This document shows, piece by piece, positions 5,449-32,199 of a stretch of 43,056 bases of DNA (position 1 is the stretch's first letter; every line of letters starts with the position of its first letter). Location: positions 1 to 43,056 of IMG/VR virus record IMGVR_UViG_3300020411_004383. One strand, 5' to 3'. This stretch comes from a virus. Position numbers and translations under genes: made by a program. The notes beneath the pieces are model-generated. The model ran no database searches and was not told the origin of the DNA. It worked only from the letters and a program-made list of their open reading frames with translations.

Positions 5449-6200
5449 TCGTATCTCCGATAAGCCTCTAGAAGCTTCTTAATGTTATATTTTTTCTGCG
5501 CTTCGCCTACAACAATAGGCTGCTCTTTTGTACCTGGCCTACCAGATTTTTCTGTCGTTTCTTTGCCTTTTTTTGCAGCTTTTTTCTCTTTTGCTTTTTG
5601 ACCTCTAGCAGGATCATCTTTTACTCGAAGACCAACATCACCAGGGTCTAAAGCCTCAGTGCCTGTTGCAACTCCTGCAAGAATCTGTGACAGCCCTGTC
5701 AAAAATACCAACATTGACTCTCTTTCATCTTTCGTCAAACTTTCAAAATATTGCGAAAAAGATTTTTTAACCTCAGGGTCTTTCAGAGATCTACCACCTC
5801 GTAAAGCGTTCAATTTATCAATTACTGCCCCTACAGTTGGTTTTTCTAGTTGCTGCTGTGTCGGTGTGTCTAGCTTTGGTGAGTCTTTAGTTCCCTTGCC
5901 GCCTGTTCTATCTTCGCGAGGTTCTTTTTCAGCTTTATCTTTATCAATAGTATCAGGCACACCTGAAGGTTGCTTCTCAGGCTCTTCTTCAGATGCCTCC
6001 GCCTCTTCTTCTTCTGCTTCGTTTGTCTCTTCTTTATCGTCAGAGGCGTGTAGCCCTTTTTTCTTAACAATTGAAGCCTGTCTATCTTGTCGACGGCGTT
6101 CGTCATTATCATCAGAGAGCTGTGAATCTAGAGTTTCTCTTATTGCTTTCAGTGTTTCCCGAGCGACCAGATTTTCAAGATTATTGAGATTAATGTTCAC
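5445..6200 (-). CDS. Charged low-complexity protein, prohead-core or scaffold-like
   Basis: This 251-aa protein starts with GTG, supported by AGGAG five bases upstream and a GTGA overlap with the gene before it. The N-terminal helix NLENLVARETLKAIRETLDS precedes a long disordered, highly charged stretch (about residues 34-120, rich in E, K, D and P). A helical segment (about 125-190) and a lysine-rich C-terminus ending YNIKKLLEAYRRYE follow. The composition resembles phage prohead core or scaffold proteins such as T4 gp67/gp68, but no homology is claimed. Confidence 0.7.
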   Translation of the reverse strand: MNINLNNLENLVARETLKAIRETLDSQLSDDNDERRRQDRQASIVKKKGLHASDDKEETNEAEEEEAEASEEEPEKQPSGVPDTIDKDKAEKEPREDRTGGKGTKDSPKLDTPTQQQLEKPTVGAVIDKLNALRGGRSLKDPEVKKSFSQYFESLTKDERESMLVFLTGLSQILAGVATGTEALDPGDVGLRVKDDPARGQKAKEKKAAKKGKETTEKSGRPGTKEQPIVVGEAQKKYNIKKLLEAYRRYE

Positions 6201-6379
6201 TTCTTCTCCTGATTTCTGATAATTCTATTGTGCGGGTGTTCCCTATACCGTCTATTGAGCTCTCTTACTTGCCACTCTTCTTCCTGCCTTTCAAGCATCT
6301 CTCTTCTTTCGTTTTGCAAGCGCTCTCTTTCTTCTAGATCTTGTACAAATTTATCAAATTGAAAACTTTTTTCACTCAT
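6197..6379 (-). CDS. Small arginine/glutamate-rich coiled-coil protein
   Basis: This 60-aa protein is almost entirely charged helix: DLEERERLQNERREMLERQ is a good coiled-coil candidate and NRRYREHPHNR is a basic tail. It overlaps the preceding gene by eight bases (ATGAGTGA) and the following GTG start by four. That tight packing is the best argument that it is expressed. Its position between a putative scaffold and unknown virion-block genes suggests a structural or assembly role. Function unknown. Confidence 0.65.
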   Translation of the reverse strand: MSEKSFQFDKFVQDLEERERLQNERREMLERQEEEWQVRELNRRYREHPHNRIIRNQEKK

Positions 6380-6722
6380 CGTTACTAACTATCCTCTTCG
6401 CCGAAAAGGTTATCATAGGGCTGGTCATGTCTAAGTTACTAAATTGAAAACTTTTATCAGCTCTAAACTTTTCTTTTTCGTATAAAAATATTGTCTCTCG
6501 CTCATGTAATAAATCTACAAGAGACATACCGGGGACTTCTAAGTTAAAAGTCCATAAACTATCTTTGAACTCTGCAGTTCGAAGTGTGCAAATGTATCTT
6601 GTCTCGCCTATCATTAAAATTTGCTCAACAAATTCAGGTGTGCCTAAGTCTAGACTTAAGCCTTCACTCATTATGACACGATTGGCGTCATCTTCTGTTG
6701 TGACTATAGGATCGTTATTCAT
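6372..6722 (-). CDS. Conserved-looking phage protein, probably beta-rich
   Basis: The protein is about 116 aa from the ATG at 6722 (MNNDPIVTTEDD), which overlaps the previous stop by eight bases (ATGAATAA). An in-frame ATG at 6731 is the alternative; a TTG further upstream is less likely. Alternating hydrophobic segments such as ILMIGETRYICTLRT and LWTFNLEVPGMS suggest a small beta-sheet domain. The C-terminus (FSNLDMTSPMITFSAKRI) is also strand-like. It could be a tail, baseplate or virion accessory protein from context. No family is recognised. Confidence 0.65.
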   Translation of the reverse strand: MNNDPIVTTEDDANRVIMSEGLSLDLGTPEFVEQILMIGETRYICTLRTAEFKDSLWTFNLEVPGMSLVDLLHERETIFLYEKEKFRADKSFQFSNLDMTSPMITFSAKRIVSNDE

Positions 6723-7095
6723 TGTATCCATAGTGTAAAACGTCTTCGTATATTTGATCAACAGATGAAGTATATTCTATGTCAAGCTCTGTGATGCAAT
6801 CGATTGAGTGTGTATATACTTCGATATCAATGTGCAGGTGACTAATTGTGATCTTTGCATGATGGTTCATTTCGTCTTCTAACTCTAAGACCTCACCCAA
6901 GAAGTCTATTAGCCGAGAACGAGAAGAAAACTCAAACCTTCTCATAAACCTCTCAGGATCCGTTACTACCTTCCACTTAATAATGTCAGGCTTGATTGGC
7001 ATATTTTGCGACTCAGATAGCAAAAACCTAGGCGTGGAAGACTTAATTGGTTTTTCGTTAAAATAGTCACGCATTATGTGAGACACTTTATCCAT
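6715..7095 (-). CDS. Pterin-4a-carbinolamine dehydratase-like protein
   Basis: This 126-aa protein resembles the PCD/DCoH family, which dehydrates 4a-hydroxytetrahydropterin. It has IKWKVVTDPERFMRRFEF followed by FLGEVLELEDEMNHHAKI, and then VYTHSIDCITELD. The catalytic pattern D-x3-H-H, then T-H, then a late D is present. The Pro after HH is replaced by Ala and the usual aromatic is missing, so activity is uncertain. The start at 7095 shares one base with the previous stop (TGATG); a longer frame would run 81 bases into that gene. PCD-like genes occur in marine phages, where their role is unclear. Confidence 0.75.
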   Translation of the reverse strand: MDKVSHIMRDYFNEKPIKSSTPRFLLSESQNMPIKPDIIKWKVVTDPERFMRRFEFSSRSRLIDFLGEVLELEDEMNHHAKITISHLHIDIEVYTHSIDCITELDIEYTSSVDQIYEDVLHYGYNE

Positions 7096-8264
7096 CACGC
7101 CTCTTGAAAGTCTGCAGTTTGCTCTAGGGACTGCATTAATAAAGATTTTCTCTTTGAGGCATTCATAGACTGCCACTTATCCAAAGATTTTTGTACTAAG
7201 TCGTCGCTAGGATCACTAGCTAATTTAAGCACAGAAATAGCACTTCTAATTTTTTCCTGTACTTCTGGTATTTCATCAGACTTTATTTTTCCTGATTTGG
7301 CTAATTGCGATAATTTTTTACTTATCAAGGCTGGATCTTGCTTTGTAGCACCTGTTACTTGATTAAAAATGGTTTGATGTATTTCTTTTGGCAAGCCTAG
7401 ATCGTCTATTTCTGACTTTACTCTTTTGTTAGCTTCTCTAGCAACCTGCTTATAAGCAGGAAGAATAAACGCGCTCACAAAAAAGAATCTAAAAGAATCC
7501 ATGTCTTTTACTATGTTAGGCGCACTTCTCAAGTCTTCAATATCTTCCAAGTCGAGTAAATCAGATTTCTCCATTGCGTCAATGTACTCCCCGACGGCAA
7601 AATCAGTCAAGGCAGACAAGTCTTCTTTTTTCACCTTGGTGGCAAAATATTCCATTCTGTCTGTGAGTCTATTGATCTCTTGTCTCATTCCTGGGGCACC
7701 TGAATATCCAAACTCATCAGCAAGATCTTCTAAGCTTACAGCGTCAGAAGATGGCTGCACGATTTGTTGTGCCGGTTCTTCTCCAAAGTAATCAACTTCG
7801 GTTCCTCTATAAGTGTCAAACTCTTCTTTATCTCTTTCAGACCCCTTATATGATGATTGCTCAGAGAGAATGCCTCGCAAAGCCGCTCGAATTACCTTTC
7901 TTATCTTTTTAGACTCTTTTTTCAACTCTTTGTCCTCTTCTTTTTCATCTTTTGGCATGCCATCTCTATCAATTGATTTTTCTAAAAGCCCTTGAAGTTG
8001 CTTATAGTACCATTCAATTTCGCCTGATGGTACTTTCTCAGATATCGCAGATGCTGCCTTTTGAAGTTCCTCTAAAGAACTTGGCACAAACTCTTCGTCT
8101 TCTACGGGAGGTCTTTCAGTAGAAAGCTGTGTTGCCATTTGCTGGCTCGGATCGATCGGCACATCACTTCCTACTGTGGGTTCTTCAGTATCTTTGCCTG
8201 TGCTAGGGAGTTGATCATAAATTCCCTTTGAGCTGCTTTGTTCGTTTAATGTTTTGCGCTGCAT
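7095..8264 (-). CDS. Precursor-like protein with two L-x-E-Q-S-S sites and an internal tag helix
   Basis: This 389-aa protein holds two similar sites: T-L-N-E-Q-S-S-S-K-G at residues 5-14 and I-L-S-E-Q-S-S-Y-K-G at 132-141. The second follows a tag-like helix KKIRKVIRAALRG (119-131). Between the sites lies an acidic, likely disordered stretch. Cutting at both would release a prodomain of about 127 residues and leave a helical mature protein of about 254 residues (with FFVSAFILPAYKQVAREANK). The GAGGTG ribosome binding site before the ATG at 8264 fixes the start. Function is unknown; a virion-internal protein is inferred. Confidence 0.75.
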   Translation of the reverse strand: MQRKTLNEQSSSKGIYDQLPSTGKDTEEPTVGSDVPIDPSQQMATQLSTERPPVEDEEFVPSSLEELQKAASAISEKVPSGEIEWYYKQLQGLLEKSIDRDGMPKDEKEEDKELKKESKKIRKVIRAALRGILSEQSSYKGSERDKEEFDTYRGTEVDYFGEEPAQQIVQPSSDAVSLEDLADEFGYSGAPGMRQEINRLTDRMEYFATKVKKEDLSALTDFAVGEYIDAMEKSDLLDLEDIEDLRSAPNIVKDMDSFRFFFVSAFILPAYKQVAREANKRVKSEIDDLGLPKEIHQTIFNQVTGATKQDPALISKKLSQLAKSGKIKSDEIPEVQEKIRSAISVLKLASDPSDDLVQKSLDKWQSMNASKRKSLLMQSLEQTADFQEA

Positions 8265-14020: not shown

Positions 14021-14428
14021 TCAGATCTGACGAACTTCAATTCCGGCGTCTCTTAAAATGTCTAGGCCGCTAGTATCTCTATATTCTTCTAAATATACAA
14101 CTTCATCAATACCAGAGTTAACAATAGCCTTTGCACACATTCTGCAAGGAGAAAGTGTCACGTACATCTTCTTTCTCTTCGGATTATTGTAGTCTAGCTT
14201 TAAAAGCGCGTTAATCTCTGCGTGAATCATTCCTGACTCACCGGGTGTCTCAGATTCTACTTCATTAGGGCCACCTGAATAGTTTCCATTATAACCTACA
14301 GCTAGCACTTGTGTGTTATCTTCCGAAACTACAATCGTGCCTACTTGGTATCGAGGATCGTAGGATCTCTGCGAAATAATGCCTGCTGTTTCGATCCATA
14401 CTTCGTCCCAACTAGGACGAACTGCCAT
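14021..14428 (-). CDS. dCMP deaminase
   Basis: This 135-aa protein converts dCMP to dUMP, feeding thymidylate synthesis. The start RPSWDEVWIETAGIISQRS is typical of the family. The zinc site is visible as MIHAEINALL (His plus catalytic Glu) and TLSPCRMCAKAI (P-C-x-x-C). I place the start at the ATG at 14428, where the family begins; an in-frame ATG at 14470 would add 14 residues. It overlaps the end of the DHH gene by 17 bases, and an intergenic structure follows it. The assignment is secure. Confidence 0.9.
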   Translation of the reverse strand: MAVRPSWDEVWIETAGIISQRSYDPRYQVGTIVVSEDNTQVLAVGYNGNYSGGPNEVESETPGESGMIHAEINALLKLDYNNPKRKKMYVTLSPCRMCAKAIVNSGIDEVVYLEEYRDTSGLDILRDAGIEVRQI

Positions 14429-15320
14429 CTGTACTTTCTCTCTTAGATTCTTGTACGTCTTTTGTGTCATTTGTGATACTTTCTCTTTTACTTTCGAATA
14501 TATCTTCAATGTTTGTATCTCCTGGCAGGCTAAACCCAGCTGCTTTTTTGTGTCCTCCTCCGCCGAAATCTTTGGCAATCTCCGACACATCTGTATTTTC
14601 GTGAAATGACCTCAAACTTACTTTAATGTCTTTCTTTTCATGATCGAAGTACCAAATCATTGCAAAATCACAGTCTGGAGATAGACGAGAGCCTATTTCA
14701 GACATCCAGTGGGAAGAGTTGACAACTAGAACATCCTTTCCCTTGTAAGATCTGGCACTGGCTTTGTCGCATACTTTTTTAATAACTGTCTTTGAGTACG
14801 CAAGAATGTAAGAACCTCTTTTGACAGCATCATCAAAGACGGAGTCGTCTTCAAATTTTTCAAACTCTTCAAACTCAAAAGGCACCATGTCAAATGCAGC
14901 AGCAAATTCTTTTGAGTAGGGTAGTTCCCACTTCCAAAGATCTCTATCTTCAATATATCCGATAAACTTAGGGTGGTCTTTTCCAGGGTGGAAAAACTCC
15001 CAAGCTAACATTGCACCAGACTTGGTCATGTCAAAGTGAGTATTTGATATGTCATGCAACTCCACCATTGCCGACTTATGATGATCAATAACAATTAGAT
15101 CCTTGGCTTTCTTTATCATCTCTTTCGTTACATTATTTTTGTAAGAAAAATCTAATATAGCGACAGTCCTCCCTGTTACGTCCGGAGGTGGCTCTCCATG
15201 TGCAGCAGCATGATACTCAGCCTTATTACCTAAAAGCTTCCATGCAGAATACGCAGCACCGAAACCGTCAGTACAATTTTTATGATATATCACGAGATCT
15301 ATAGCGCTAGGTTCAGTCAT
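14412..15320 (-). CDS. DHH/DHHA1-family phosphoesterase
   Basis: This 302-aa protein has DHH-domain motifs: YHKNCTDGFGAAY near the N-terminus, AILDFSYK, and IVIDHHKSA. A C-terminal DHHA1 domain ends with GGGGHKKAAGF. The family hydrolyses phosphodiesters in short oligonucleotides, pAp or cyclic dinucleotides, using manganese. Phage versions may recycle nanoRNAs or destroy signalling nucleotides; the sequence cannot decide between these. The start overlaps the thymidine kinase stop by eight bases (ATGACTGA). Confidence 0.85.
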   Translation of the reverse strand: MTEPSAIDLVIYHKNCTDGFGAAYSAWKLLGNKAEYHAAAHGEPPPDVTGRTVAILDFSYKNNVTKEMIKKAKDLIVIDHHKSAMVELHDISNTHFDMTKSGAMLAWEFFHPGKDHPKFIGYIEDRDLWKWELPYSKEFAAAFDMVPFEFEEFEKFEDDSVFDDAVKRGSYILAYSKTVIKKVCDKASARSYKGKDVLVVNSSHWMSEIGSRLSPDCDFAMIWYFDHEKKDIKVSLRSFHENTDVSEIAKDFGGGGHKKAAGFSLPGDTNIEDIFESKRESITNDTKDVQESKRESTDGSSS

Positions 15321-15879
15321 AAATTAAATCACCCAAACTATTCATGAACGGAGTAGCAGACCACGCTCTCGGCTCATAAATATCTGCTCCACCTACCTCA
15401 ATTTCAGATAGATTATCAACTTTTCTAACTGTGTAATATGCGTTATTTCCTGTCTTTACACAAACTGCAGGGCACACTTCTATGGATGTTGCCCATGGTA
15501 GAATTGAAGCGACTTCCTGAAAAACATTTCCTGATGCAGACATTTGAATTGACGATACAACTATAGTTTTTCCACATCTAAAAAGATGTATTAACGCATC
15601 AGCACACCCATCAATCATGAAAGCTTCGTCTACGCCAATGACATCATGATCTCTGCTCAACTCTATGATTTCCGTGCCGGTGTTGACATTAATCGCAGGA
15701 AATTTAAGACCTGCATGTGTGCATATTTCACCCTCTGAGTATCGGTCATCCATTTTTGGCTTAAAGGCTATAACTTTTCTATTTTGATATGAGCACCGCT
15801 CTAAGACAGATAGCATTCTAGTTGTCTTAGCACCGAACATTGGGCCTGTATAAACTATAAACTCGGGTTCTCTAGTCAT
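15313..15879 (-). CDS. tdk: Thymidine kinase (type II), reduced zinc site
   Basis: This 188-aa protein phosphorylates thymidine for salvage. The P-loop GPMFGAKT is at residues 12-19, DEAFM at 84-88 gives the catalytic region, and EVGGADIYEPRAW near the end is the family's substrate lasso region. The structural zinc is normally held by two CxxC-type pairs. Only C136 and C140 remain here, and the second pair is replaced by RAWSA, so the zinc ribbon is probably lost. GGAGGA lies just before the ATG, directly after the neighbouring stop. Confidence 0.85.
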   Translation of the reverse strand: MTREPEFIVYTGPMFGAKTTRMLSVLERCSYQNRKVIAFKPKMDDRYSEGEICTHAGLKFPAINVNTGTEIIELSRDHDVIGVDEAFMIDGCADALIHLFRCGKTIVVSSIQMSASGNVFQEVASILPWATSIEVCPAVCVKTGNNAYYTVRKVDNLSEIEVGGADIYEPRAWSATPFMNSLGDLIYD

Positions 15880-16791
15880 TTATTCCTCCAGGTCTCTTCT
15901 TATATGAGCGCTGTTAAGTGTTACATTTATCATAATTTTGTCTGCTTTTAGATCAAGCAACTTATACACGTGCTTCGTTAAAAATTCTAAAAATTCTAAA
16001 TCGATTGATCCATTTCTATCCACGTCAGTACTTCTTAATATAGCGTGAAGAGTAAGTACATCACCTCTCGGCATAAAATGTAAGTTAGAAATACACGTAT
16101 CAGAGTGGTAAATAAATCTCCGGCTACCTAGAGTTTGAGGAATATTATACGGATTATTGCCGGCGAGTTCATTATCAATGACAGTCTGCGTTTCCTTTAG
16201 TATTTTTTTATAGTACTCGCCTTCATATTCATGATCCAGTATGCTGTTATCTGGAAGTGCTGAGGGCATCATTAAGCTTGCCCTCAGCGTTAGTTCGTCT
16301 TCAGAAGAAGCATGCAACGTATCACGAATTACCTCACCTACATGAGTGGGCAAACATGATTCAATTGCGTAAGACCACTCCATAGTATAATTGACGATCG
16401 TTTCTACAGACACATTCTCTCTGATACACATTACTGTTGGGCGCTTTTGAATCTTTTTAGCTTCTGTCGAGAATATTTTGTGTAACTCTCTTAGCGACGA
16501 AAGATCTTGAAACTCATCACCTCTTGTATGATAGCGCTCCTCTATTATCTTGATATCAGGAATCAAAATGATCATTCTATTATTTAAATCATTAAGCTCT
16601 TCAGACAGTCTTCGGCGATGTTCTTCTTCATCTCTTCCATAAAGAATTGCATAACAAAGCATCGACAATGTAGATCTATCCTGAATATTCCACTTAAAGC
16701 ATGTCGCCTTGTGAAGAGCATCATACAGTGTGGTTTTTCCTACCAGGTCAGGACCTTCTAAAATTAGCTGTTTTGTTGGAAATGCTATCAT
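15880..16791 (-). CDS. Fusion of a P-loop nucleotide kinase and a thymidylate-synthase-like domain
   Basis: In this 303-aa protein the N-terminus has LILEGPDLVGKTTLYDAL (9-26), a thymidylate/dNMP kinase-like Walker A. Residues about 211-297 look like the C-terminal core of ThyA: D-T-C-I-S-N-L-H-F (231-239) aligns with the catalytic PCH region, AILRSTDVDRNG (250-261) with the RSxD motif, and NSAHI with the HxY end. The ThyA N-terminal phosphate-binding part is absent. It could be a bifunctional dTMP or modified-dUMP enzyme, or the TS part may be a binding domain. Confidence 0.65.
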   Translation of the reverse strand: MIAFPTKQLILEGPDLVGKTTLYDALHKATCFKWNIQDRSTLSMLCYAILYGRDEEEHRRRLSEELNDLNNRMIILIPDIKIIEERYHTRGDEFQDLSSLRELHKIFSTEAKKIQKRPTVMCIRENVSVETIVNYTMEWSYAIESCLPTHVGEVIRDTLHASSEDELTLRASLMMPSALPDNSILDHEYEGEYYKKILKETQTVIDNELAGNNPYNIPQTLGSRRFIYHSDTCISNLHFMPRGDVLTLHAILRSTDVDRNGSIDLEFLEFLTKHVYKLLDLKADKIMINVTLNSAHIRRDLEE

Positions 16792-16800
16792 TTTATCATC

Positions 16801-19800
16801 CTAATCATATGCGCTAATACGCTTCATTTTATAAGTGCTTGTTGAAAATCCCCAGTTTGCATCATGGTGTACATCTGCTAGCCACAATGTATAAGGCTCT
16901 AGAACATCCATTCTACCCCAGACTCTGAGCCATGTGGTTTGATAATCATTGTTAATCACTTTAAGCCGATAAAAGTCTTTTCCGTTCTTTGTTTTCTTTT
17001 TAATGATCTCTGATATGCAAAACCACCCAACATTTCGGGCACCTGGTTCAATTGTATGAATAGAGTCTATTTTCTTTTTCTCGACCTTTGTCATTAGCTC
17101 AGAGGGAAAGACTAAATCAGCATCGACTCCTGCTGTCATTTCGATATAGTTTGCAATTTTTTCTTGTCGACTCCAGTCAGGTAAACCTGCATACTCATTT
17201 TTCAACCTTTTGATTATCGGTACTAGCATTTCACCATTTTTTTCGGCGCGCTTTTTCTGCGTCTTTGTAATACCATACTCACCCTTACGTAAAAGATCAT
17301 AGTTTTTGTTTTCCGTCATCATTGCAAGAAGTTGGCGGTGGTTTTCGATCTTGCCCGTCTTAAGATCTTCGAGTGAGCCAAAAGCTTCAATCTTACAAAG
17401 TGAAGACAAGGCTGTTTTATTAACCTTTGAGTGCTTCCATACACCTTCTTCATTAAAGAACAAGTCATGCAAGCTATTGTAAGGTCGGGTTTGAATAATC
17501 TCCTGCATTGCTGTTTTTCCTACACCTTTGACAGAACTCAAAGGGGGCACAAAGCCGCCGGCGTCTTGGGAATGCTCCCACTGCTCTCCAGAATAGTTGA
17601 TATCAGCTGATACAAAATCATACTTGTAGCTTTTAATCTCAGAAATAGTCTTTGCAAGTCCTTTTGGGCTGTTGTTTTCAGATTGTAAAATTGTTGCTAA
17701 CCATTCATGCTCATAGTGTGTATGAAGCCACGCTGCGTAATAAGAGTCAATGGCGTAAGACACTGCGTGTGACTTATTGAAGCCATATACAGAGAAAGCC
17801 TCAATTGTTTCCCAGAGAGCTTGCGTGACACTCTCATCAATGCCGTGCAAGTCTTTGGCGCCTTTAATGAACTTCTTTCTCGCTGCCTCTCGCTCTCCGC
17901 CCTTTTTCCCCATTGTGTCAAGTGACTTTTTAACAAGAGTTTTTCTAAGCTTATCAGACTCGCCCGGTGTAAATCCAGCTAGCTCAACAGCTAGTGTCAT
18001 GAACTGCTCCTGAAAGACTACAAAGTTAAACGTCGGACCGAGAACTTTTTCAATTACAGGATGCTCATATTTGATCTCTGATGCATTTCTTTTGGCTTTT
18101 ACATATTTCCTATGAACATTCGCTTTAAGTGGTCCTGGCCTATAAATAGCAGTTAATGCAGCCAACTCTTCAATAGAGGTCGGCTTTGCTGCAAGGCAAA
18201 ACTTTCTAGCACCCGGGGCTGTAAATTGAAAAACACCGGTGAAGCGCCCTTTGTGGTAAACATGCTCCCATACTCTTGGATCGTCCTGCTTGTTATAGCG
18301 ACAGTTTAGGTGCTCGTCGAAAAAATCTCTAACGTCCAAGAATGTTGGGTGAGGATTGCCTTGCTTTTTCAAAATTCTTGCGATACAATTTTCCACATCT
18401 TTTAGAAGCGTCAAACCGAGAAAGTCGAACTTTAGGAAGCCGTTATCTTCTAGATTCCTAAAGTTCATGCCTTCTGTCCACGGAGTCTGTAATTCACCTC
18501 GGACACCAATAATAGGCATTGTTGTTTCTAAGTCTTCTGGCGGCGCAATGATGACACCGCCGGCGTGCCGGCCGATGGACCTATTTTCCATAAACAGCGT
18601 CTCCACATGCTTGCCGACCTCAGGGTACTTTTCCATAAATTCTCTGTAGCCCTTAGAGTACTTCATGCAATCTTCATGTTTGAGAACAAATACAGACTTT
18701 TCTTGATTTTCATCCTTAGCATGTGGCATTACTTCATCTTGAAGCGGACCGGTCATTTTGTTTACCTCGCCAAAGTCGATTCCGTAAAACTTTGCGATGT
18801 CTTTTACAAGAGATTTAAGTTTAAGGGTATTGAAATTAGAAACAGGAATAACAGCATCATCACCAAAGAGCTCTCTTGATGCATCAATTAGAGCGTCTCT
18901 GTCGCCTGCGTCGGTGTCGATATCAGGCCATGAAGTACGATGGCGCCCTAGGAATCTAGACCATAGAAGACCGTGTGGTAATGGGTCAATCTGTGTTATA
19001 CCCAAGAGATAGTTTACTAAAGATCCAGCACCTGAGCCGCGGCCCGGGCCAAACAGCGTCTTGTTTTCTGCTAAGTGAAATATTTTATACATTGCCAAGA
19101 AGTAAGCTTCGTACCCTAGGTACTTGATATCAGACATCTCTTCTTTCATGCGTTCAACATATTCAGGCTTGCTAGCCAATCCTTCTCGGATCATCGCAGC
19201 CTTAACAAGATCAGCCAACATTTGAAATGCCGGTTTTTCGGGGGTGCCAAACTTAGGAAGCTTAACTGATGTGTCTATCCACGTGTCTTCACACTTTTGC
19301 CAGGCAATATCATGAGTTCGCTCAATGGCATCTCGCACGATCTCTTCGTTGCCTTGATAGAAATCATACTCTGCATAGCTTTGCTTAAATTCATCCCACA
19401 TTTGGTGCGCATTTTTTGGATAAAGCATGCACTTAAGGTCTTCTTCTTTGGGAAGCATGCTTTGATCGAGCTTAGCACCCATCCAGCCTAGCTTCTTATA
19501 AAGCTCACGAGCTTGCCATTTGTCTGAGCTTGGAAAGTGAGAGTCAGCAGTGGCAATGAGTTGAACCCCTGTTTTATTAGAAAGATCGAGCAGGCATCGA
19601 TTTGTCAAATGCTGGGCTGGCAAATCATTAAACTGCATTTCTAAGAAGAAATTATCAACCCCTACACAGTCAACAAACCGATCTGTCATATTTTCAAGCC
19701 TGGACATGACTGGGTTGTAGTCATCCAAGTTGTTCATTAGCGACGGATGAAGTTCGTCAAACCTAAGACCGCTAAACTGCTTGTAAATTAAGCCCGATGC

Positions 19801-20436
19801 CAATCCTCCTACACATGCTGTAGAAACAACTAGGCCGTCAGCATGCTCTTTAAGCATCTTGAAGTCAATTCGTGGAAATCGATAGAACCCATGCTTGTAC
19901 GATTTCTTTACCAACGTAAAAAGATTACCTAGGCCTACTTGATTTTTTGCAATTACGACAAGATGATAGTATCTCTTCCATTCTGGCTTGTTAGCACTAG
20001 ACCTTTTTGTTTCCTCTTCATCCTCGATGACATGACCACCCTGTTCCACTTCGTCTTCAGCGTCAATTACAATTTTTTGTGTAGCTTTCTTTTCTTGCTC
20101 TTTGGCAGTTTTTGCATCTCTAACTTCTTGTCGATGTGTTTCATACTGATTTCGCCAATCCTCTAGCGAAGGTACAAAATAAAACTCCACACCATAAAGC
20201 TGACGATATTTCCGGCCCGCCTTTTGCATTTTTACTGTATGTGCTCTTGCGTGTGCCAAACCTGAGCCGTTTCCGTGATCAGTTAGTGCCCAAGAATCCA
20301 TACCTTGAGCATCGCTCAAGACAAAATCAATATGTTCCTTAGGATAGCCCAAACCATCAAATGTGCTAAATGAAGAATGCGCGTGCAATCCAGTAAATCT
20401 ACTTGGGGGGCGAATTAAGTCTAGTTTAGAAGTCAA
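16801..20436 (-). CDS. DnaE-type DNA polymerase III alpha subunit
   Basis: This 1211-aa protein is the replicative polymerase of the C family. A PHP domain begins at FTGLHAHSSFS (14-24) with ALTDHGNGSGL. GPGRGSGAGS (463-472) and PDIDTD (504-509) form the palm, and KFDFLGL (669-675) carries the third acidic residue. FNKSHAVSYAIDSYYAAWL is the conserved finger/tail motif and a C-terminal OB-like domain ends the protein. A charged insert lies at about 93-150. The start is TTG with GGAG seven bases upstream. No epsilon exonuclease or clamp gene is visible here. Confidence 0.9.
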   Translation of the reverse strand: MTSKLDLIRPPSRFTGLHAHSSFSTFDGLGYPKEHIDFVLSDAQGMDSWALTDHGNGSGLAHARAHTVKMQKAGRKYRQLYGVEFYFVPSLEDWRNQYETHRQEVRDAKTAKEQEKKATQKIVIDAEDEVEQGGHVIEDEEETKRSSANKPEWKRYYHLVVIAKNQVGLGNLFTLVKKSYKHGFYRFPRIDFKMLKEHADGLVVSTACVGGLASGLIYKQFSGLRFDELHPSLMNNLDDYNPVMSRLENMTDRFVDCVGVDNFFLEMQFNDLPAQHLTNRCLLDLSNKTGVQLIATADSHFPSSDKWQARELYKKLGWMGAKLDQSMLPKEEDLKCMLYPKNAHQMWDEFKQSYAEYDFYQGNEEIVRDAIERTHDIAWQKCEDTWIDTSVKLPKFGTPEKPAFQMLADLVKAAMIREGLASKPEYVERMKEEMSDIKYLGYEAYFLAMYKIFHLAENKTLFGPGRGSGAGSLVNYLLGITQIDPLPHGLLWSRFLGRHRTSWPDIDTDAGDRDALIDASRELFGDDAVIPVSNFNTLKLKSLVKDIAKFYGIDFGEVNKMTGPLQDEVMPHAKDENQEKSVFVLKHEDCMKYSKGYREFMEKYPEVGKHVETLFMENRSIGRHAGGVIIAPPEDLETTMPIIGVRGELQTPWTEGMNFRNLEDNGFLKFDFLGLTLLKDVENCIARILKKQGNPHPTFLDVRDFFDEHLNCRYNKQDDPRVWEHVYHKGRFTGVFQFTAPGARKFCLAAKPTSIEELAALTAIYRPGPLKANVHRKYVKAKRNASEIKYEHPVIEKVLGPTFNFVVFQEQFMTLAVELAGFTPGESDKLRKTLVKKSLDTMGKKGGEREAARKKFIKGAKDLHGIDESVTQALWETIEAFSVYGFNKSHAVSYAIDSYYAAWLHTHYEHEWLATILQSENNSPKGLAKTISEIKSYKYDFVSADINYSGEQWEHSQDAGGFVPPLSSVKGVGKTAMQEIIQTRPYNSLHDLFFNEEGVWKHSKVNKTALSSLCKIEAFGSLEDLKTGKIENHRQLLAMMTENKNYDLLRKGEYGITKTQKKRAEKNGEMLVPIIKRLKNEYAGLPDWSRQEKIANYIEMTAGVDADLVFPSELMTKVEKKKIDSIHTIEPGARNVGWFCISEIIKKKTKNGKDFYRLKVINNDYQTTWLRVWGRMDVLEPYTLWLADVHHDANWGFSTSTYKMKRISAYD

Positions 20437-20509: not shown

Positions 20510-21490
20510 TTAAATGTTGGAGTTGTAAAACTCTGTAAGATCGATTCCTTCTTGTCTTGCCTTGTTTAGGTGGACTAAAGGATCATAGCTGTCATCACTC
20601 TCTAGTATAGACTTGTACACTTTGTCGATCCCTTGTTTTAGAGTTATTTTAGGCGACCAGCCTGTCTCATTTCTAAATTTAGCTGAGGACAACATGTGAT
20701 TCCCTAGATAATCAGTGTCTGCGTGCCATTTTATCATTGTAGAGATATCGGCACCCAAGACTTCATTCATCATTTCGACAATTTTTAGTGTCACGTGAGG
20801 AGTTTCTGCTGAGATGTTATAGTCATTGCCCCACAAGCCTCTAGAGCACCCTAAAACCACAGCTTCACAAAAATCTTGTACATGAAGGTAGTCTTTTATT
20901 TTACCTGGATCTAGAAACATGTCTAAATCAGATTCGTTGTTTAGATGTGCATAAACTGATTTTGCAATCAGAGAGTTCATATCTCCGACACCACCATATG
21001 CAAAAAGAGGTCTTATGACCAGCCAGTCTTTTGCATGACTTGTAACAACATGTTCTCCGGCGAGCTTTTGACTTCCGTAAAAAGTCATAGGCTTTATAGC
21101 AGAGTCTTCCAGGATCTGATCTGACTGATATTTTGCTGTGTCATAAATTACAGTTGTTCCCATATAGCATACAGGTATATTGGCATTCTTGCACGCCATT
21201 GCTATGTTATATGACCCTACAACGTTAGATAGTGTTGCCTCATTAGGATTGAGTGCAACAACATCTGTTCCTACAACAGCAGCATTATGAACAACAAGGT
21301 CTACGTCTAGATTTTTGAGATGCCACTCCCATACCTTGGGAGTGTTTCTGTGTACACAGGTTTCCCCAGTAGACTGAAGCCTTAAAACATTTGAATCTTT
21401 AATGCTTAAGACTTCATGTCCCTGAGAAGAGAATGCTAAAGATAAATTGCGTGCAATAAATCCGGCTTCACCTGTTATTAATACTTTCAT
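20510..21490 (-). CDS. NAD-dependent epimerase/dehydratase (extended SDR)
   Basis: In this 326-aa protein the Rossmann start MKVLITGEAGFIARNL is the extended-SDR GxxGFI dinucleotide motif. The catalytic Tyr/Lys are in YGSQK (Y138, K142), with the Thr-rich segment GTTVIYD at 111-117. Substrates of this group are nucleotide sugars (UDP-glucose 4-epimerase-like). It overlaps the previous stop by TAATG. In a phage it may supply sugar for capsule, receptor or DNA modification; no glycosyltransferase is in the window. Confidence 0.85.
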   Translation of the reverse strand: MKVLITGEAGFIARNLSLAFSSQGHEVLSIKDSNVLRLQSTGETCVHRNTPKVWEWHLKNLDVDLVVHNAAVVGTDVVALNPNEATLSNVVGSYNIAMACKNANIPVCYMGTTVIYDTAKYQSDQILEDSAIKPMTFYGSQKLAGEHVVTSHAKDWLVIRPLFAYGGVGDMNSLIAKSVYAHLNNESDLDMFLDPGKIKDYLHVQDFCEAVVLGCSRGLWGNDYNISAETPHVTLKIVEMMNEVLGADISTMIKWHADTDYLGNHMLSSAKFRNETGWSPKITLKQGIDKVYKSILESDDSYDPLVHLNKARQEGIDLTEFYNSNI

Positions 21491-21981
21491 TATTCAATTT
21501 CACGATCGTATGGTTCAAAGAGAAGCTGTTTCTCTCCCCAGCATCGATCCAAATAATCTTCTAGCTGCTCAATACTAGTACATACCTTCACGCCGCTTCG
21601 AGCTAGCATTAGGTTAAACTTGGCACCTTCAGGCAAACCTGCGCAATAGTAGATAATAGGCTTTTGGTGTGCAAATGCAAACCCTGCTTCCCAAATTGTG
21701 CCGATATCTTTGTCACGTGTATTGACAATGAGAAAGGCAGCCTCTGAAATCTCCCTAAGATTGCCAGCGAAGGTCTGGTCCTGCACATCTTTTGGTGCAT
21801 CTGGTGGGCATACAAAGATCCTTCTAGGACTTGCAAGATCTATCCAATCTCGATCATCACACACCTTTTCTAGTTGTGCTAGTTCTTCTGCTTGAGTTGG
21901 ATTGAACCAGCCTGCAGCAAGGTAAACCTTCTGCTTTTCTTCGTTTTGATTTTGCGAATTTTCTGTTTGAGTATCTGACAT
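21490..21981 (-). CDS. Nucleoside 2-deoxyribosyltransferase-like protein
   Basis: In this 163-aa protein the sequence VYLAAGWFNPTQ at the start, then SEAAFLIVNTRDKDIGTIWEAGFAFAHQKPII, fits the NDT family. G-T-x-W-E-x-G-x-A carries the catalytic Glu. The family exchanges bases on deoxyribosides or hydrolyses deoxynucleotides. A Q/N/E-rich N-terminal extension (about 2-16) is extra. AAGGA lies upstream of the ATG. It sits among thymidylate genes, so a deoxynucleotide-remodelling role is likely. The substrate is unknown. Confidence 0.75.
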   Translation of the reverse strand: MSDTQTENSQNQNEEKQKVYLAAGWFNPTQAEELAQLEKVCDDRDWIDLASPRRIFVCPPDAPKDVQDQTFAGNLREISEAAFLIVNTRDKDIGTIWEAGFAFAHQKPIIYYCAGLPEGAKFNLMLARSGVKVCTSIEQLEDYLDRCWGEKQLLFEPYDREIE

Positions 21982-21990
21982 TGTTATTCC

Positions 21991-22962
21991 TTAAAATTCC
22001 TTGTTGTAGTCGTTTTTCATTGTATCGAATTCGTCCATTAGATCTCTCCACATAGTTGTGAAAACTTTTTCCCCTGTACCGTGTGTACCGTTTAACTCTT
22101 CTCGGCGACAGGCATAGATTGTGTCTTCTTCGTGGTATTCAAAAGTGTCATTCTTAGGTTCTGGCTGATAAAGATTGGTTCCTCGACTAATCCACTTGTC
22201 CCCTTCCTTTACCCGAAAAGTATTGATATAGTGAAAGTCAGGCTTATCAAAATTAAACACCTGCGTCAATTCAGGAATTGCCTTGCATGCTTCAATGGCC
22301 ATTCGAGCAGCAAGAATATTGTCGGCTGCAGGCTGAATCTGAACGTCTTGCCGCTGCTTAACAAATCCAATCAGGTCCTTGAGATTAAGGCGCATGTAAT
22401 AAAAAGATGTCATGCACTTAGGCAAAATCATTCTCGCGTCCATCATTGAAACAACTCTAGAATCAGTCATGTCTGCATAGAGCTTCTTTGATTCATTCAC
22501 TAAATTACACCATCGCTCCAGGAACTCAGGAGAATTTTCAACAGACTCAGGAACAACAGCTGGATCGTCTCTTAGGTCGCGATCACCGGTGCACTGTGCA
22601 GCGAAAGAGCCTGCGCGGTGACGGATAATATGAGTAACCTCCTGGAAAGAAAGTCCTGAAAGCCTAAATGTAAACCCTAGACATTCCATTGGAGTAGGTA
22701 GTGCTCTAAATTGAAGCACATCGAGCAAGTTTTTGCTTTTGATTGCATCAACAGCTTCACTTGGATCAATTTCCTGCGGCGTATCAGCCCAAGTAGCCTT
22801 TACATAATGCCATGCTACATCTCTTGCTTGATTAGTTGTGGGTGCATCTACAAGCTCTACTTTTAGTGCCTTTAAATTATTCATAAAGGACGTGCTTGGG
22901 GGCTTGTCAAACTTTAACTCCATCGGGAGTTCAATAGGGTCCAAGTCATTATTTTGCGGCAT
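21991..22962 (-). CDS. Divergent ThyX-family (FAD-dependent thymidylate synthase-like) protein
   Basis: In this 323-aa protein the segment EVTHIIRHRAGSFAAQ at 108-123 corresponds to the ThyX motif region RHRxxSxNExSxRY. Here R-H-R-A-G-S is followed by F-A-A-Q-C-T-G-D-R-D, so the N-E and S-R-Y parts are changed. DARMILPKCMTSFYYMRLN and FVKQRQDVQIQPAADNIL match the C-terminal ThyX core. A canonical ThyX is also encoded at 28858-29562, so this copy may act on another substrate or be regulatory. GGAGGA precedes the ATG. Confidence 0.75.
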   Translation of the reverse strand: MPQNNDLDPIELPMELKFDKPPSTSFMNNLKALKVELVDAPTTNQARDVAWHYVKATWADTPQEIDPSEAVDAIKSKNLLDVLQFRALPTPMECLGFTFRLSGLSFQEVTHIIRHRAGSFAAQCTGDRDLRDDPAVVPESVENSPEFLERWCNLVNESKKLYADMTDSRVVSMMDARMILPKCMTSFYYMRLNLKDLIGFVKQRQDVQIQPAADNILAARMAIEACKAIPELTQVFNFDKPDFHYINTFRVKEGDKWISRGTNLYQPEPKNDTFEYHEEDTIYACRREELNGTHGTGEKVFTTMWRDLMDEFDTMKNDYNKEF

Positions 22963-22997: not shown

Positions 22998-23234
22998 TTA
23001 GACATGCTTCTTTAGTTGTTCAAGCAAATCATCAGTTACTTTTCGATATCCTAGTTTGTTAAATGCTGTGTCGCCTAAATTTAACCACACAGAAAATAGA
23101 TAGTCATCAAATACTGACAGAATTCCTGCTGTTGTGTCTTCTGTTAGACGTGGAAGATCTCTTTTTTCTCTTTCGAGTTTATCTTCAACAATGTTAGATA
23201 GTAGTCTAAGGTAAAAGTCTCTTGACTGCTTCAT
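22998..23234 (-). CDS. Small helical phage protein, function unknown
   Basis: This 78-aa protein starts at the ATG at 23234 (MKQSRDFYLRLLSN). AAGGA nine bases upstream supports this start over an upstream in-frame start. It overlaps the preceding gene by 29 bases. Helical stretches SNIVEDKLEREKRDL and VTDDLLEQLKKHV are seen, with a middle GILSVFDDYLFSVWLNLGD. There is no recognisable domain. Confidence 0.6.
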   Translation of the reverse strand: MKQSRDFYLRLLSNIVEDKLEREKRDLPRLTEDTTAGILSVFDDYLFSVWLNLGDTAFNKLGYRKVTDDLLEQLKKHV

Positions 23235-24141
23235 CAATACTGTCCTTTTCCCAGTCAAATGTGTGAATGTTTTTCATGTCCCATACTTCGGCATTATACG
23301 ACCTCTTAGGAACGAACACAGGAATATCATGCTGAGCATATTCTGCTGCATGCTTTGGTGAGTCATCTATTGCACAGACCACTTTGCCTTGTTTGAAAAA
23401 AGGCTTATCAGAAAGCCATCTATACTTTTCAGCATTTAGTGTGACAGAATCATATGGCATGTCTATCTGTGACAGCCAAAAATATGTGTCGTATAGACAC
23501 TTTAAGTTTTCCTTAGGGCGTGCTGTCAGAATGTGCACCCAGAAACCTGCTTCGTGCAGCTTAGTAATAGATTCCAGCATTAGGTCATTAGTAGGAAGTG
23601 ATCTAATTCCGCCATTTTTAATGAAGATCATGTAGGCTTCTTCGATCGACATGTCGCCAACTGTGCCCTGGACGTAATAGTTTGGATCTTCTATGTCAAG
23701 AGATACTCCGAACTCTTTTTCGACCCATCCAAAAAAACCTGTTCTAAATCTAGCCAAGACATCGTCGACGTCGACGATGATCACAGGGCTACCGTCCCAT
23801 TTTTGTATACCTCTAGTCTCTCTATCCCATAAGAATGCTTCTCTAGAATCATATGCATCCATAAAATCTTCATCTGAAAAATCCCATAGATTCAAAGTTG
23901 CGAGGCAATATCTCATTACATCAACTGTTTCATACAGTATTTTTTGAGCTTGTGTATCAGATGCGACAGGCCTATGATCTTTATAATGTACAGCATCAGC
24001 AAGGCTAGAAACTTCTGAGTGTAATGCTAGTGCAAATATCTTGTGTCGTTCAATCTTTTCCTTTTCGCTTAACGCGTCTGAGTCAAAGAAAAGATTAGAA
24101 AATTGTTTTTGTGTTTTTAAAATATTTTTTATGTCACTCAT
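23206..24141 (-). CDS. All-alpha NTP pyrophosphatase-like domain fused to a HAD phosphatase
   Basis: In this 311-aa protein the N-terminal part (1-110) has the MazG/dUTPase-2 rhythm: ALALHSEVSSLADAVHY (E43), then YETVDVMRYCLATLNLW (E71, D74). The C-terminal part is a HAD hydrolase with IIVDVDDVLARF (D124, D126), HILTARP and VCAIDDSP, close to the 5'(3')-deoxyribonucleotidase group. The fusion could cut dNTP to dNMP and then to a deoxynucleoside, sanitising or remodelling the pool. AGGGA precedes the ATG. A 122-base divergent gap with palindromic sequence lies upstream. Confidence 0.8.
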   Translation of the reverse strand: MSDIKNILKTQKQFSNLFFDSDALSEKEKIERHKIFALALHSEVSSLADAVHYKDHRPVASDTQAQKILYETVDVMRYCLATLNLWDFSDEDFMDAYDSREAFLWDRETRGIQKWDGSPVIIVDVDDVLARFRTGFFGWVEKEFGVSLDIEDPNYYVQGTVGDMSIEEAYMIFIKNGGIRSLPTNDLMLESITKLHEAGFWVHILTARPKENLKCLYDTYFWLSQIDMPYDSVTLNAEKYRWLSDKPFFKQGKVVCAIDDSPKHAAEYAQHDIPVFVPKRSYNAEVWDMKNIHTFDWEKDSIDEAVKRLLP

Positions 24142-25481: not shown

Positions 25482-26288
25482 TTATTTTTGTTTATCGGGA
25501 GACCAGTGTGTAGTTCTCCCATCGGGTGTAGGTGTCTTAATCACTTTGTTACCCTCTGCATCTATTTTACGATTATAACACAGAAACCTACTTGAGTAAT
25601 CCCCTGATTCTCCTGAAAAGTTTTTGTGTGTTAAAAAAGTTGCTCCGCCATGCTCATATGAAGTTAGCATTACTCCTTTAACTGCACGAAATAGAAGTTC
25701 TAAGTCATGATCGACGATATCAGAAACGCTTCTTAGTGGGCTTATGCCTGCTAACCATAATGCCTCTGATTTTATATAGTTGCCGATTCCAGCCAGGACT
25801 GCTTGATTCATTAATGCCTTTGTAATATTCCAGTTTTCTTTTTTGCGAAGCCTCTCTACAAAAACTTCTGAAGTTGTGTCTGTAGAAAACATATCCGGGC
25901 CCATTTTGGTAAGTTTTGACTTGAGCATACTTGGCCCGTATACAAATTTAAGTGTTCCAAAATTTCTTTGATCATTAAAGTAAAGAGGCTCAGCATCCGT
26001 AAACTGTATTTTTACTCTACTGTGCTTTGTCTCCCCACTACTCCACTGGCCGGTCATGCCTAGTGTTGACCAAAGATTTACACTAGAATCTGTAATCACA
26101 TATAGAAATTTTCCGTGCACGCCTACGCCTACAACTTTTGTAGGCAAAGATTTAGATATGTCTTCAAACCCTGAAATTGGCTTTTTGGTGTATCTTCCTG
26201 ACAAAACTGTAACGCTCTTAATTGTTTTGCCTGAGATCTTTTTTGACATGTCAAATCCCATCTTTTTTACTTCAGGCCCTTCAGGCAT
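25482..26288 (-). CDS. Fpg/Nei-type DNA glycosylase without zinc finger cysteines
   Basis: This 268-aa protein starts exactly MPEGPEVKK. In this family Pro2 is the nucleophile and Glu3 is catalytic, so the ATG at 26288 is correct and upstream starts are not. LGMTGQW, FNDQRNFGTLKF and NQAVLAGIGNYIKSEALW follow the Fpg order. The C-terminus CYNRKIDAEGNKVI, then DGRTTHWSPDKQK, keeps the finger's strands but has lost the zinc cysteines. This is a zincless finger as in NEIL1 and some viral Nei proteins. It excises oxidised bases. It overlaps the MBD4-like gene by eight bases. Confidence 0.88.
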   Translation of the reverse strand: MPEGPEVKKMGFDMSKKISGKTIKSVTVLSGRYTKKPISGFEDISKSLPTKVVGVGVHGKFLYVITDSSVNLWSTLGMTGQWSSGETKHSRVKIQFTDAEPLYFNDQRNFGTLKFVYGPSMLKSKLTKMGPDMFSTDTTSEVFVERLRKKENWNITKALMNQAVLAGIGNYIKSEALWLAGISPLRSVSDIVDHDLELLFRAVKGVMLTSYEHGGATFLTHKNFSGESGDYSSRFLCYNRKIDAEGNKVIKTPTPDGRTTHWSPDKQK

Positions 26289-26703
26289 ATTCACTCCTAG
26301 CCCATTCGACGTAGTCATTCAATGCATTGTCATCTGGCGTTACATTATTCCAGTCAAATTTACAAAAGACTTTGTAGCAATCGTCAGCATACTTTCCACA
26401 TGCATATAGATCTGACGGAAGATTCCACTCGTTGTTTAGAAATTCTTTTGAAAATCTAACAAGCGATTTGCTCCTTCTATTATAAAGCCCTAAGGGTTTG
26501 AGAATTTCTGCTAGCTCGACAGGATCAGCTAATGCCATATTTTTAGGCTGTGGATACTTTTTAAAAAGGGTTTTATACACCTTGTCGACCTGTCTGCGTG
26601 TTGTCTGATTATGCAGTATGCAGACAACTAGAATTTTCCAAACATCTGGCCACATATCTTCTTGCAGCATTCCAATTGGTGACTTTGAAAGTTTCCAAAC
26701 CAT
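26281..26703 (-). CDS. MBD4-like helix-hairpin-helix DNA glycosylase
   Basis: This 140-aa protein has LHNQTTRRQVDKVYKTL, then LAEILKPLGLYNRRSKSLVR, then ACGKYADDCYKVFC, then VTPDDNALNDYVEW. These follow the HhH-GPD domain of eukaryotic MBD4 closely, including the catalytic Asp (D125 in P-D-D-x-x-L-N-x-Y). There is no iron-sulfur cluster cysteine set. MBD4 removes T, U or 5-hydroxymethyl-U opposite G. No clear ribosome binding site is seen, but TATAAT lies 22 bases upstream. It is coupled to the Fpg-like gene. Confidence 0.82.
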   Translation of the reverse strand: MVWKLSKSPIGMLQEDMWPDVWKILVVCILHNQTTRRQVDKVYKTLFKKYPQPKNMALADPVELAEILKPLGLYNRRSKSLVRFSKEFLNNEWNLPSDLYACGKYADDCYKVFCKFDWNNVTPDDNALNDYVEWARSEYA

Positions 26704-28094: not shown

Positions 28095-28865
28095 TTATCG
28101 CTTTTCTACTTTGACTATCTCTACAGGCGTGGCTATAAACTCATTCCACAGAGAAGTCTTTGTCGGATGATCACATTCACTTAAGTCATAGCATATGTTG
28201 TTAGTGTTTCTACCCGGATATTCCAGTCTATACATGTTGCATGCTCTTCTTCCGGAATCGAGTGCCATAGATTTAATGTCACTTCTAAATCCTGCTCTTA
28301 CATTGCCTACTAGTGTCACAAGAACATTTGATTCTTTTCTAAAAAAGGGCCTTTCCATTACAGTAAATGTAGAAATATCAAACTCAGACCCATTTTGAAT
28401 TGCAGTATAAAGGCGCTCGACGCCTGCCTCTGTCGTGTAGTGATTTAGAACCTTGGGGTTGTAAAGTGATCCATAGAACTGAACTGTGTATTCATCATCA
28501 AGCATGACGTAGGGCTCCATGTCTCCTCGTGAATAGAAATACGCGAACTTTAGCTTATGAATGTCAGGGAAATAATGACCAAACTCTTTTTCAAATCCCC
28601 AGAATCTATGATTGACAAAGTCTTCAATAAAATCTAGTATATTTTTTTGAGTTAGCAAATCCCATCGATCAACTTCGTCATTTAATTGATAACTAAAGTA
28701 CTTGTCCAATATGTCTATTAGACGCTGATCTAGAGAGAGTCCACCTCGTGTGTCGATTCCTTCCTTTTGTAGTTCAAGAAGCTGTGCTACTGCAATCTCC
28801 CACTCAGTCAGTGTGTAAAAACTACTGGCTGGCTTCATATAGCCTCTAACTTTTATTTTAGTCAT
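28095..28865 (-). CDS. Conserved phage-type protein, function unknown
   Basis: In this 256-aa protein the C-terminal half (FDISTFTVMERPFFRKES, then TLVGNVRAGFRSDIKSM, then NMYRLEYPGRNTNN) is strongly patterned. I recall it from other marine phage genomes without a known role. ACNMYRLEYPG and two further Cys (ICYDLSECDH) might form a metal or disulfide site, but this is not established. The start overlaps the ThyX stop by eight bases (ATGACTAA). Confidence 0.7.
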   Translation of the reverse strand: MTKIKVRGYMKPASSFYTLTEWEIAVAQLLELQKEGIDTRGGLSLDQRLIDILDKYFSYQLNDEVDRWDLLTQKNILDFIEDFVNHRFWGFEKEFGHYFPDIHKLKFAYFYSRGDMEPYVMLDDEYTVQFYGSLYNPKVLNHYTTEAGVERLYTAIQNGSEFDISTFTVMERPFFRKESNVLVTLVGNVRAGFRSDIKSMALDSGRRACNMYRLEYPGRNTNNICYDLSECDHPTKTSLWNEFIATPVEIVKVEKR

Positions 28866-29562
28866 TATTCCCTCTAAAAGAGAGAACTGCCTCCGGCCAA
28901 AGATCTTCTGCTATGTCTAGGCAGGCTTTCGCAACTTGCTGAATTTCCCATTGCGCGCCTTCGTGTGTCCTTAGACTTACAAACTTCATTAGATTATTTA
29001 AGTTGACAGTCCCATAATATTGTGTGTACATGTTTTGAGGCAGCACACTTCTCGCTTGTTCTCGACAGACACCTGCTTCTAGCAATCTCTCAAAGAGTCT
29101 CATGCTAATTCTTCCGTGTTCTTTTATGGCATCTGATGCGTTCATTGTAGCATATTGACCTCGTGGGTATGCTACCAGAGGATCAATTAAGTCTTTTTCA
29201 TTTGACGCTTGTCTATTTGACTCATGCTGTGTTCTTAGTAGAGACGGCTCATAAAACTGAATATCTACATCTGTGTATCTTCGACTTATTTCATTGTAAG
29301 ACCAAGTACGATGACGATGGTGTTGAGAGCGAATGAACAGAGGTACCACAAACCGAAAAGTAACAACGTTGTGCTCAAATGTCGATGTGTGTCGATGGTC
29401 GACAAGGTACTTAATAAGCTTTTTGTCTTTTTCATCTAGATTATTCTTGTGTTTTCCAAAAGATACCCTGGCAGCGTTTGCAACTGTAAGGTCTGTTCCC
29501 ATATGCTGAATATACTCAACTGAGCCTATTCCGTCCTCGAATAGCTCGATTCTTTTACTCAT
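28858..29562 (-). CDS. thyX: FAD-dependent thymidylate synthase ThyX (canonical)
   Basis: This 234-aa protein methylates dUMP to dTMP with methylene-tetrahydrofolate and FAD. The signature RHRTWSYNEISRRY at 83-96 is complete. The early ARVSFGKHK segment and the C-terminal QARSVLPQNMYTQYYGTVNLNNLMKF region also fit. The start ATG shares a base with the previous stop (TAATG). This is the normal enzyme; the copy at 21991-22962 is the divergent one. Confidence 0.93.
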   Translation of the reverse strand: MSKRIELFEDGIGSVEYIQHMGTDLTVANAARVSFGKHKNNLDEKDKKLIKYLVDHRHTSTFEHNVVTFRFVVPLFIRSQHHRHRTWSYNEISRRYTDVDIQFYEPSLLRTQHESNRQASNEKDLIDPLVAYPRGQYATMNASDAIKEHGRISMRLFERLLEAGVCREQARSVLPQNMYTQYYGTVNLNNLMKFVSLRTHEGAQWEIQQVAKACLDIAEDLWPEAVLSFRGNND

Positions 29563-30806: not shown

Positions 30807-30808
30807 CT

Positions 30809-31597: not shown

Positions 31598-32199
31598 TTA
31601 AGGCCTGTTAGCTCCCATGGCATGCCGCCAACTTCTATTTTGTAGTTTTTTGTTGTAACTTTTAACTCTGCCGGCGGTTCATAATCTTCTGGGAGTGGGT
31701 CTTTCCACACAATCCTATTGTTAGGTTGTCCGGCAACCTGCCCATTGTCTAATAAAATTATTGCTGCACTTTTATAAATTGTAGGTGTTTCAGCAGAAGA
31801 CGAAAATGCCCAATCAATTGTGGTATGATACTTGCCTGCGACATATTTTTTGCAAGAAGGAATCCATACATTGCATCTGCGCTCAGCTAGAAAATCATAT
31901 GTTATTGCAGAAACATAGTAAGACATGCAGTCATAAACTTGTAAATCTTTCATGACATATTGCTCTCCAACAGGTGACTTCCACAAAAGACCATGAATAG
32001 GTACTCTTCCATATACCGCACCTGACTCTAATTCAACATGAAAACTCAGGACTCTTCCATCTATAGATGCTATCGCAAATGCAACCCCAGGATATAGCTT
32101 ACCTTGGATCTTGTCATCTGTTATAAATTCGCTCTTGACCCACACTTCTAGTGGGTGTATGTTTTCATTTAGAAAATTATTGCGAGGTGTTTTGAACAT
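31594..32199 (-). CDS. Phage protein of unknown function
   Basis: The protein is about 201 aa from the ATG at 32199, chosen because GAGG lies nine bases upstream; ATGs at 32205 and 32217 are alternatives. The sequence is beta-rich (LYPGVAFAIASIDGRVLSF, then IHGLLWKSPVG) with three internal Cys including RRCNVWIPSCKKY. It overlaps the spermidine synthase gene by 23 bases. No known family is recognised; it might be a small beta-sandwich or a receptor-binding accessory. Confidence 0.6.
   Translation of the reverse strand: MFKTPRNNFLNENIHPLEVWVKSEFITDDKIQGKLYPGVAFAIASIDGRVLSFHVELESGAVYGRVPIHGLLWKSPVGEQYVMKDLQVYDCMSYYVSAITYDFLAERRCNVWIPSCKKYVAGKYHTTIDWAFSSSAETPTIYKSAAIILLDNGQVAGQPNNRIVWKDPLPEDYEPPAELKVTTKNYKIEVGGMPWELTGLK

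Follow-up and report, generated by a model that had tools for sequence, protein, structure and literature searches.

The locus lies in a 43-kb virus record (IMG/VR IMGVR_UViG_3300020411_004383) from a marine phage, and the window is this whole stretch of 43,056 nt. At 15880-16791 an intact ORF of 303 aa codes for a dNMP-kinase-like region fused to a compact thymidylate synthase (TS)-superfamily domain. The earlier note had the exact limits of this ORF but the wrong strand; the gene is on the minus strand, and the plus strand of the interval has many stops. The ORF begins 9 bases past the gene for a DnaE-type DNA polymerase, while genes for a thymidine kinase, a DHH phosphoesterase and a dCMP deaminase follow downstream in that order. 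Two ThyX genes are encoded in the window, one ordinary and one divergent.

14021-14590, minus strand: dCMP deaminase (phrog_174, E 2.6e-48)
15313-15879, minus strand: thymidine kinase, directly downstream of the fusion (PF00265, E 2.5e-29)
15880-16791, minus strand: fusion gene, dNMP-kinase-like plus compact TS-superfamily domain
16801-20436, minus strand: DnaE-type DNA polymerase III alpha, directly upstream of the fusion (phrog_405, E 6e-230)
20510-21490, minus strand: NAD-dependent (nucleotide-sugar) epimerase family protein (PF01370, E 1.8e-25; phrog_540)
21490-21981, minus strand: nucleoside 2-deoxyribosyltransferase (PF05014, E 4e-13)
21991-22962, minus strand: divergent ThyX paralogue, 323 aa, the proposed partner (identity to the ThyX of Geobacillus phage GR1; co-occurrence)
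28858-29562, minus strand: ordinary ThyX for dTMP synthesis, 234 aa (phrog_85, E 4.9e-67; motif RHRTWSYNEISRRY)

The same cluster includes a gene for an Fpg/Nei-type DNA glycosylase (25482-26318); Fpg/Nei-type enzymes are able to remove oxidised pyrimidines. At 23206-24141 a dUTPase-type domain seems to be joined to an NT5C/HAD-type phosphatase (weak Pfam matches, below cut-off), and AAT-like acyltransferase, ATE_C-like, ferredoxin-family and spermidine-synthase-like genes are grouped at 29562-33010. No base glycosyltransferase was recognised among the annotated genes of the window.

Searches of sequenced phages and viral contigs with the whole protein found no relatives. Homologues were recovered with the neighbouring polymerase as the query, which led to 79 loci. 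A homologue of the fusion is encoded in 69 of them, and the 10 others include contigs ending just past the polymerase. The conserved phage family comprises 75 unique sequences. An alignment of 53 proteins (A1), 32-47% identical to the window protein, has 26 invariant columns, including E12, G13, D15, G18, K19, D38, R39, R90, G91 and D92 in the N-terminal half and R224, R225, C233, R253, S254, D264 and H296 in the C-terminal half. With A1 as input, AlphaFold2 modelled the full 303-aa fusion at a pLDDT of 95.3 and a pTM of 0.90; this full-length structure was also the Foldseek query.

16360-16791, minus strand: P-loop nucleotide-kinase domain, residues 1-144 (Walker A, NIQDRS, RGDxxQD)
16732-16755, minus strand: Walker A, residues 13-20 (GPDLVGKT), conserved in the family
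15883-16359, minus strand: compact TS-superfamily domain, residues 145-303 (hhalign, Foldseek)

Profile matches and the predicted fold both bear out the proposal that a P-loop kinase is fused to a TS-superfamily domain. The kinase part has the Walker A, DRS-type motif and kinase fold of dNMP/thymidylate kinases. Its Walker A (EGPDLVGKT), already reported from the sequence, is real and conserved, with G13, D15, G18 and K19 found in 73 of the 75 sequences. The domain resembles YorR (profile match to 2axp, E 8.9e-9) and dTMP/deoxynucleoside kinases, and VIA-align superposed it on 3kb2 with a Z of 14.7 (rmsd 2.8, 139 aligned). The Pfam family Thymidylate_kin matched at E 8e-4 with a score of 19.6, below the curated cut-off of 27. 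As an identity for the whole protein, phrog_761 "thymidylate kinase" was rejected, covering the kinase portion only.

The C-terminal segment had been put at roughly 90 aa; the secondary structure of the AlphaFold model sets its limits at 145-303, about 159 aa. From about residue 145 it runs helix, strand, helices, three strands, long helix, strand, and it is smaller than ThyA. The best PDB matches from Foldseek are 9iqu and 9iqc, titled "phage HY126 dCMP hydroxylase-AfhB" with dCMP and "Monooxygenase dependent on riboflavin with dCMP and FAD". They are followed by many thymidylate synthases, T4 dCMP hydroxymethylase (1b5d) and MilA, and a TS N229D structure with dCMP (1njc) is also among the matches. 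These top matches are TS-fold enzymes at E 1e-6 to 1e-4, so structure prediction, the check suggested in the earlier note, returned the TS fold for the full-length model. TM-scores are moderate (0.49 for 9iqu by target length), in line with what a shortened domain should give.

Profile comparisons used an alignment of the C-terminal domain (A2). The T4 gp42 family is the best sequence-profile relative (hhalign probability 95, E 3.9e-8), ahead of ThyA (probability 75, E 2.6e-5); the comparison with the ThyX-like family gave 0.1. The gp42-family score was 54.8, against a maximum of 19.7 among 100 column-shuffled controls. The domain profile picked out gp42 alone from the whole T4 genome (E 2.2e-5); from Sphingomonas phage PAU it recovered nothing but the thymidylate synthase (E 8e-8). 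The alignment with gp42 starts at gp42 residue 118. The N-terminal third of the domain has no sequence alignment to ThyA, so no equivalent of the catalytic Glu58 and no cofactor site could be placed, and nothing in the domain can be recognised as the folate part of ThyA, to which W80, D169, the middle segment and the C-terminal end belong. A Pfam search with PF00303 detects the fusion of no carrier. Weak EF-hand/calmodulin matches to the C-terminal domain were set aside as chance. On its profile matches and predicted fold, together with the catalytic Cys, phosphate Arg set and His, the C-terminal domain belongs to the TS superfamily.

16117-16125, minus strand: S223-R224-R225, aligned by hhalign with the ThyA phosphate arginines R126/R127 (gp42 R123/R124)
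16093-16095, minus strand: C233, equivalent of catalytic Cys146 of ThyA and Cys148 of T4 gp42 (73 of 73 aligned sequences)
16030-16035, minus strand: R253-S254, ThyA R166-S167 and gp42 R168-S169 (71 of 71)
16000-16002, minus strand: D264, at the position of ThyA Asn177 and gp42 Asp179, which sets pyrimidine-base specificity (Asp in 71 of 71 aligned)
15904-15912, minus strand: S294-A295-H296, region of ThyA H207 and gp42 H216 (His in 71 of 71)

Across the 75 unique sequences, C233, R253, S254, D264 and H296 are, gaps aside, the sole residues at their columns, and R224 is found in 74. The Cys, the Arg/Arg-Ser residues, the His and Asp264 are thus invariant or nearly so and make up the catalytic set minus the folate residues. 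The earlier reading that the ThyA Cys and an R-S-x-D region were kept holds for C233, R253 and S254; position 256, the D of R-S-x-D (ThyA D169), is N, D or E and not conserved. The tripeptide S294-A295-H296 aligns with SLHV of gp42 and SAHV of 9iqc. D264 is 11 residues past the R of R-S, the same offset as in ThyA and gp42. T4 gp42 and 9iqc share an Asp at the Asn177 position, whereas ThyA has Asn, and the window domain therefore carries the residue typical of gp42-type dCMP hydroxymethylases. Within the TS superfamily, Asp for Asn at this site accompanies cytosine nucleotides, as in T4 gp42 and in the TS N229D structure with dCMP (1njc). Because this Asp marks the dCMP-acting members, the substrate of the domain is probably dCMP and not dUMP, judging from sequence.

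ThyA (PF00303) shares the nucleotide-binding and Cys motifs. The window domain differs from it in having Asp for Asn177, in not keeping D169 and in lacking the middle part and the C-terminal ~55 residues; the W80 region falls outside the alignment. T4 gp42 (1b49/1b5d) has the SRR, Cys, R-S, Asp179-type and S-x-H residues in common with the domain, but it is a full-length protein of 246 aa with a folate site and with neither a fused kinase nor a ThyX partner, and its W82 and E60 have no clear counterpart in the window. E190 and E208 are candidates for the position of E60. The best structural match is AfhB of phage HY126, an FAD-dependent dCMP hydroxylase (9iqu/9iqc). It is a TS-fold dCMP enzyme with the same Asp and the SAHV motif, though its likeness to the domain is one of fold only and FAD binding is a feature of AfhB. 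Both AfhB and the Mosigvirus 5-hydroxy-dCMP synthase differ from the domain in being chains of 234-238 aa, at ~14-15% identity. The Mosigvirus enzyme, of the TS superfamily, makes 5-hydroxy-dCMP for phage DNA (PMC13390438) and is therefore a precedent for TS-fold dCMP modification without thymidylate synthesis; the key work on 5-hydroxycytosine biosynthesis is Lee et al. 2025, as cited in PMC13390438.

The divergent ThyX of the window has the motif RHRAGSFAAQCTGDR, in which the RHR of the FAD site is kept while NE and R are changed. It matches the ThyX family (PF02511), yet it departs from the motif RHRxxSxNExSxR(Y), having A, C and G at the positions of the dUMP residues E86, S88 and R90 of T. 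maritima ThyX. In Geobacillus phage GR1, a stand-alone TS-like domain of 151 aa is encoded directly 3' of a ThyX gene. The GR1 ThyX and the divergent ThyX of the window are 45% identical end to end; the two TS-like domains are only about 20% identical. The nucleophilic-type Cys is invariant in the stand-alone forms too, and in GR1 a Q replaces the second phosphate Arg. A separate kinase of the same family is encoded about 1.2 kb upstream of the GR1 ThyX, so that GR1 encodes the kinase, the divergent ThyX and the TS-like domain separately, in three genes that all lie within about 3 kb; in the marine phages a single gene codes for both kinase and domain. GR1 and its relatives are a natural split of the fusion. 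The GR1 stand-alone form is included in phrog_35203 (E 6e-63), a family of no assigned function; the window's kinase fusion has no match to it.

A search with the GR1 ThyX found seven further records, all seven with a TS-like ORF directly after ThyX. Among 30 polymerase-led records searched, a strong divergent ThyX is present in 27 of the 29 that carry the fusion; in the other two carriers (G010 and G026) the contigs may end before it. The fusion is absent from the 30th record (L049), which instead encodes another kind of ThyX paralogue and a separate kinase. In this record (5975-7438) and in L051 (2113-3583), also without the fusion, that ThyX, with an RGRVGWAY motif, immediately precedes a P-loop kinase that stands alone; this arrangement may be another version of the module. 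In the reverse direction, the majority of ThyX-led records carry the TS-like domain. We do not read a missing fusion as loss because several ThyX genes without the domain are close to a contig end. The linkage may partly reflect a shared location in the nucleotide gene cluster. A second, ordinary ThyX is encoded in 15 of 23 marine carriers and ThyA in two thermophile-phage records, so many carriers already have a normal route to dTMP.

Gene groups of similar appearance, without the TS-like domain, are found in Xanthomonas phage Carpasina (L167, 8037-10590) and Luteibacter phage Pluto (L168, 8001-10863), where a ThyX paralogue is followed by an annotated polynucleotide kinase and a short-chain dehydrogenase beside a DNA polymerase. 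One contig filed as a Euryarchaeota MAG (L169) has the polymerase, divergent ThyX and fusion beside a TonB-receptor-like ORF, and is probably viral or mixed.

Taking the predicted fold, conserved residues, kinase fusion, split-gene form and divergent-ThyX association as observed, we propose that the fusion is a bifunctional deoxynucleotide enzyme in a module that makes C5-modified dCMP and carries it on to the diphosphate, and give this chemistry about an even chance. The C-terminal domain would bind a deoxypyrimidine monophosphate, most likely dCMP given Asp264. Cys233 would attack C6 of the base and render C5 reactive, as in ThyA and dCMP hydroxymethylase, and the C5 group, a one-carbon unit or oxygen, would be supplied with flavin help. 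We infer flavin because no folate-binding parts like those of ThyA can be recognised; the help could come from the divergent ThyX that is inherited along with the domain, or the domain could itself bind FAD as AfhB does. The fused kinase would phosphorylate the altered dCMP to the diphosphate, and the polymerase of the adjacent gene would use the modified nucleotide in replication, with incorporation into DNA. More tentatively, the truncated TS domain might combine with the divergent ThyX into a single composite enzyme that depends on flavin and modifies dCMP at C5, the TS domain holding and activating dCMP through its Cys and the ThyX-like flavoprotein delivering the carbon or oxygen.

It is rather unlikely that the TS-like domain is chemically inactive and serves an ordinary phage dNMP kinase by binding a deoxynucleotide, dCMP or some other, so as to regulate the kinase or supply it with substrate. 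Physical fusion to the kinase is consistent with such a role, as is the lack of ThyA's folate half and C-terminal closure in a domain that keeps exactly the nucleotide-binding residues. Mere binding, however, would not need the invariant Cys, and the GR1 domain, apart from its kinase, still adjoins the divergent ThyX. We consider it similarly improbable that the domain and the divergent ThyX make a modified dUMP or dTMP, such as 5-hydroxymethyl-dUMP, in place of a modified dCMP. Thymidine-related genes abound in the cluster (thymidine kinase, dCMP deaminase, ThyX) and the ThyX superfamily acts on dUMP, but the family has an invariant Asp264 at the site of the Asn of dUMP enzymes, and profile similarity to the dCMP enzymes exceeds that to ThyA. 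The DNA-modification route envisaged earlier is partly supported, as to superfamily, nucleotide-metabolism context and probable action on modified deoxypyrimidines; its base specificity is corrected, Asp264 pointing to dCMP. Very improbable is the suggestion that, like the 5-hmdU DNA kinases, the fused kinase targets a hydroxyl of the modified base and not the 5'-monophosphate: P-loop kinases do so in known thymidine hypermodification routes, but the closest solved relatives here are YorR and dNMP/dN kinases and Pfam gave no match to a DNA-base kinase family.

In the literature we found no description of the ThyX-like/TS-like pair or of phage GR1. The TS-like domain accompanied by a divergent ThyX paralogue is new here; the earlier note overlooked this partner, the cytosine signature and the split-gene form of GR1. 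The near-constant company of the fusion gene with this unusual ThyX-like flavin enzyme suggests an uncharacterised phage route to modified DNA letters. Two unrelated thymidylate-synthase superfamilies, ThyA-type and ThyX-type, are joined in one conserved phage module separate from dTMP synthesis. The composite enzyme, if true, would be a third route beside folate-dependent gp42-type and self-contained AfhB-type flavin chemistry, with the kinase fused on for channelling. The module offers a candidate function for PHROG family 35203, and it predicts a modified cytosine, or another modified pyrimidine, in Geobacillus phage GR1, which is a named isolate, and in widespread phages from the environment.
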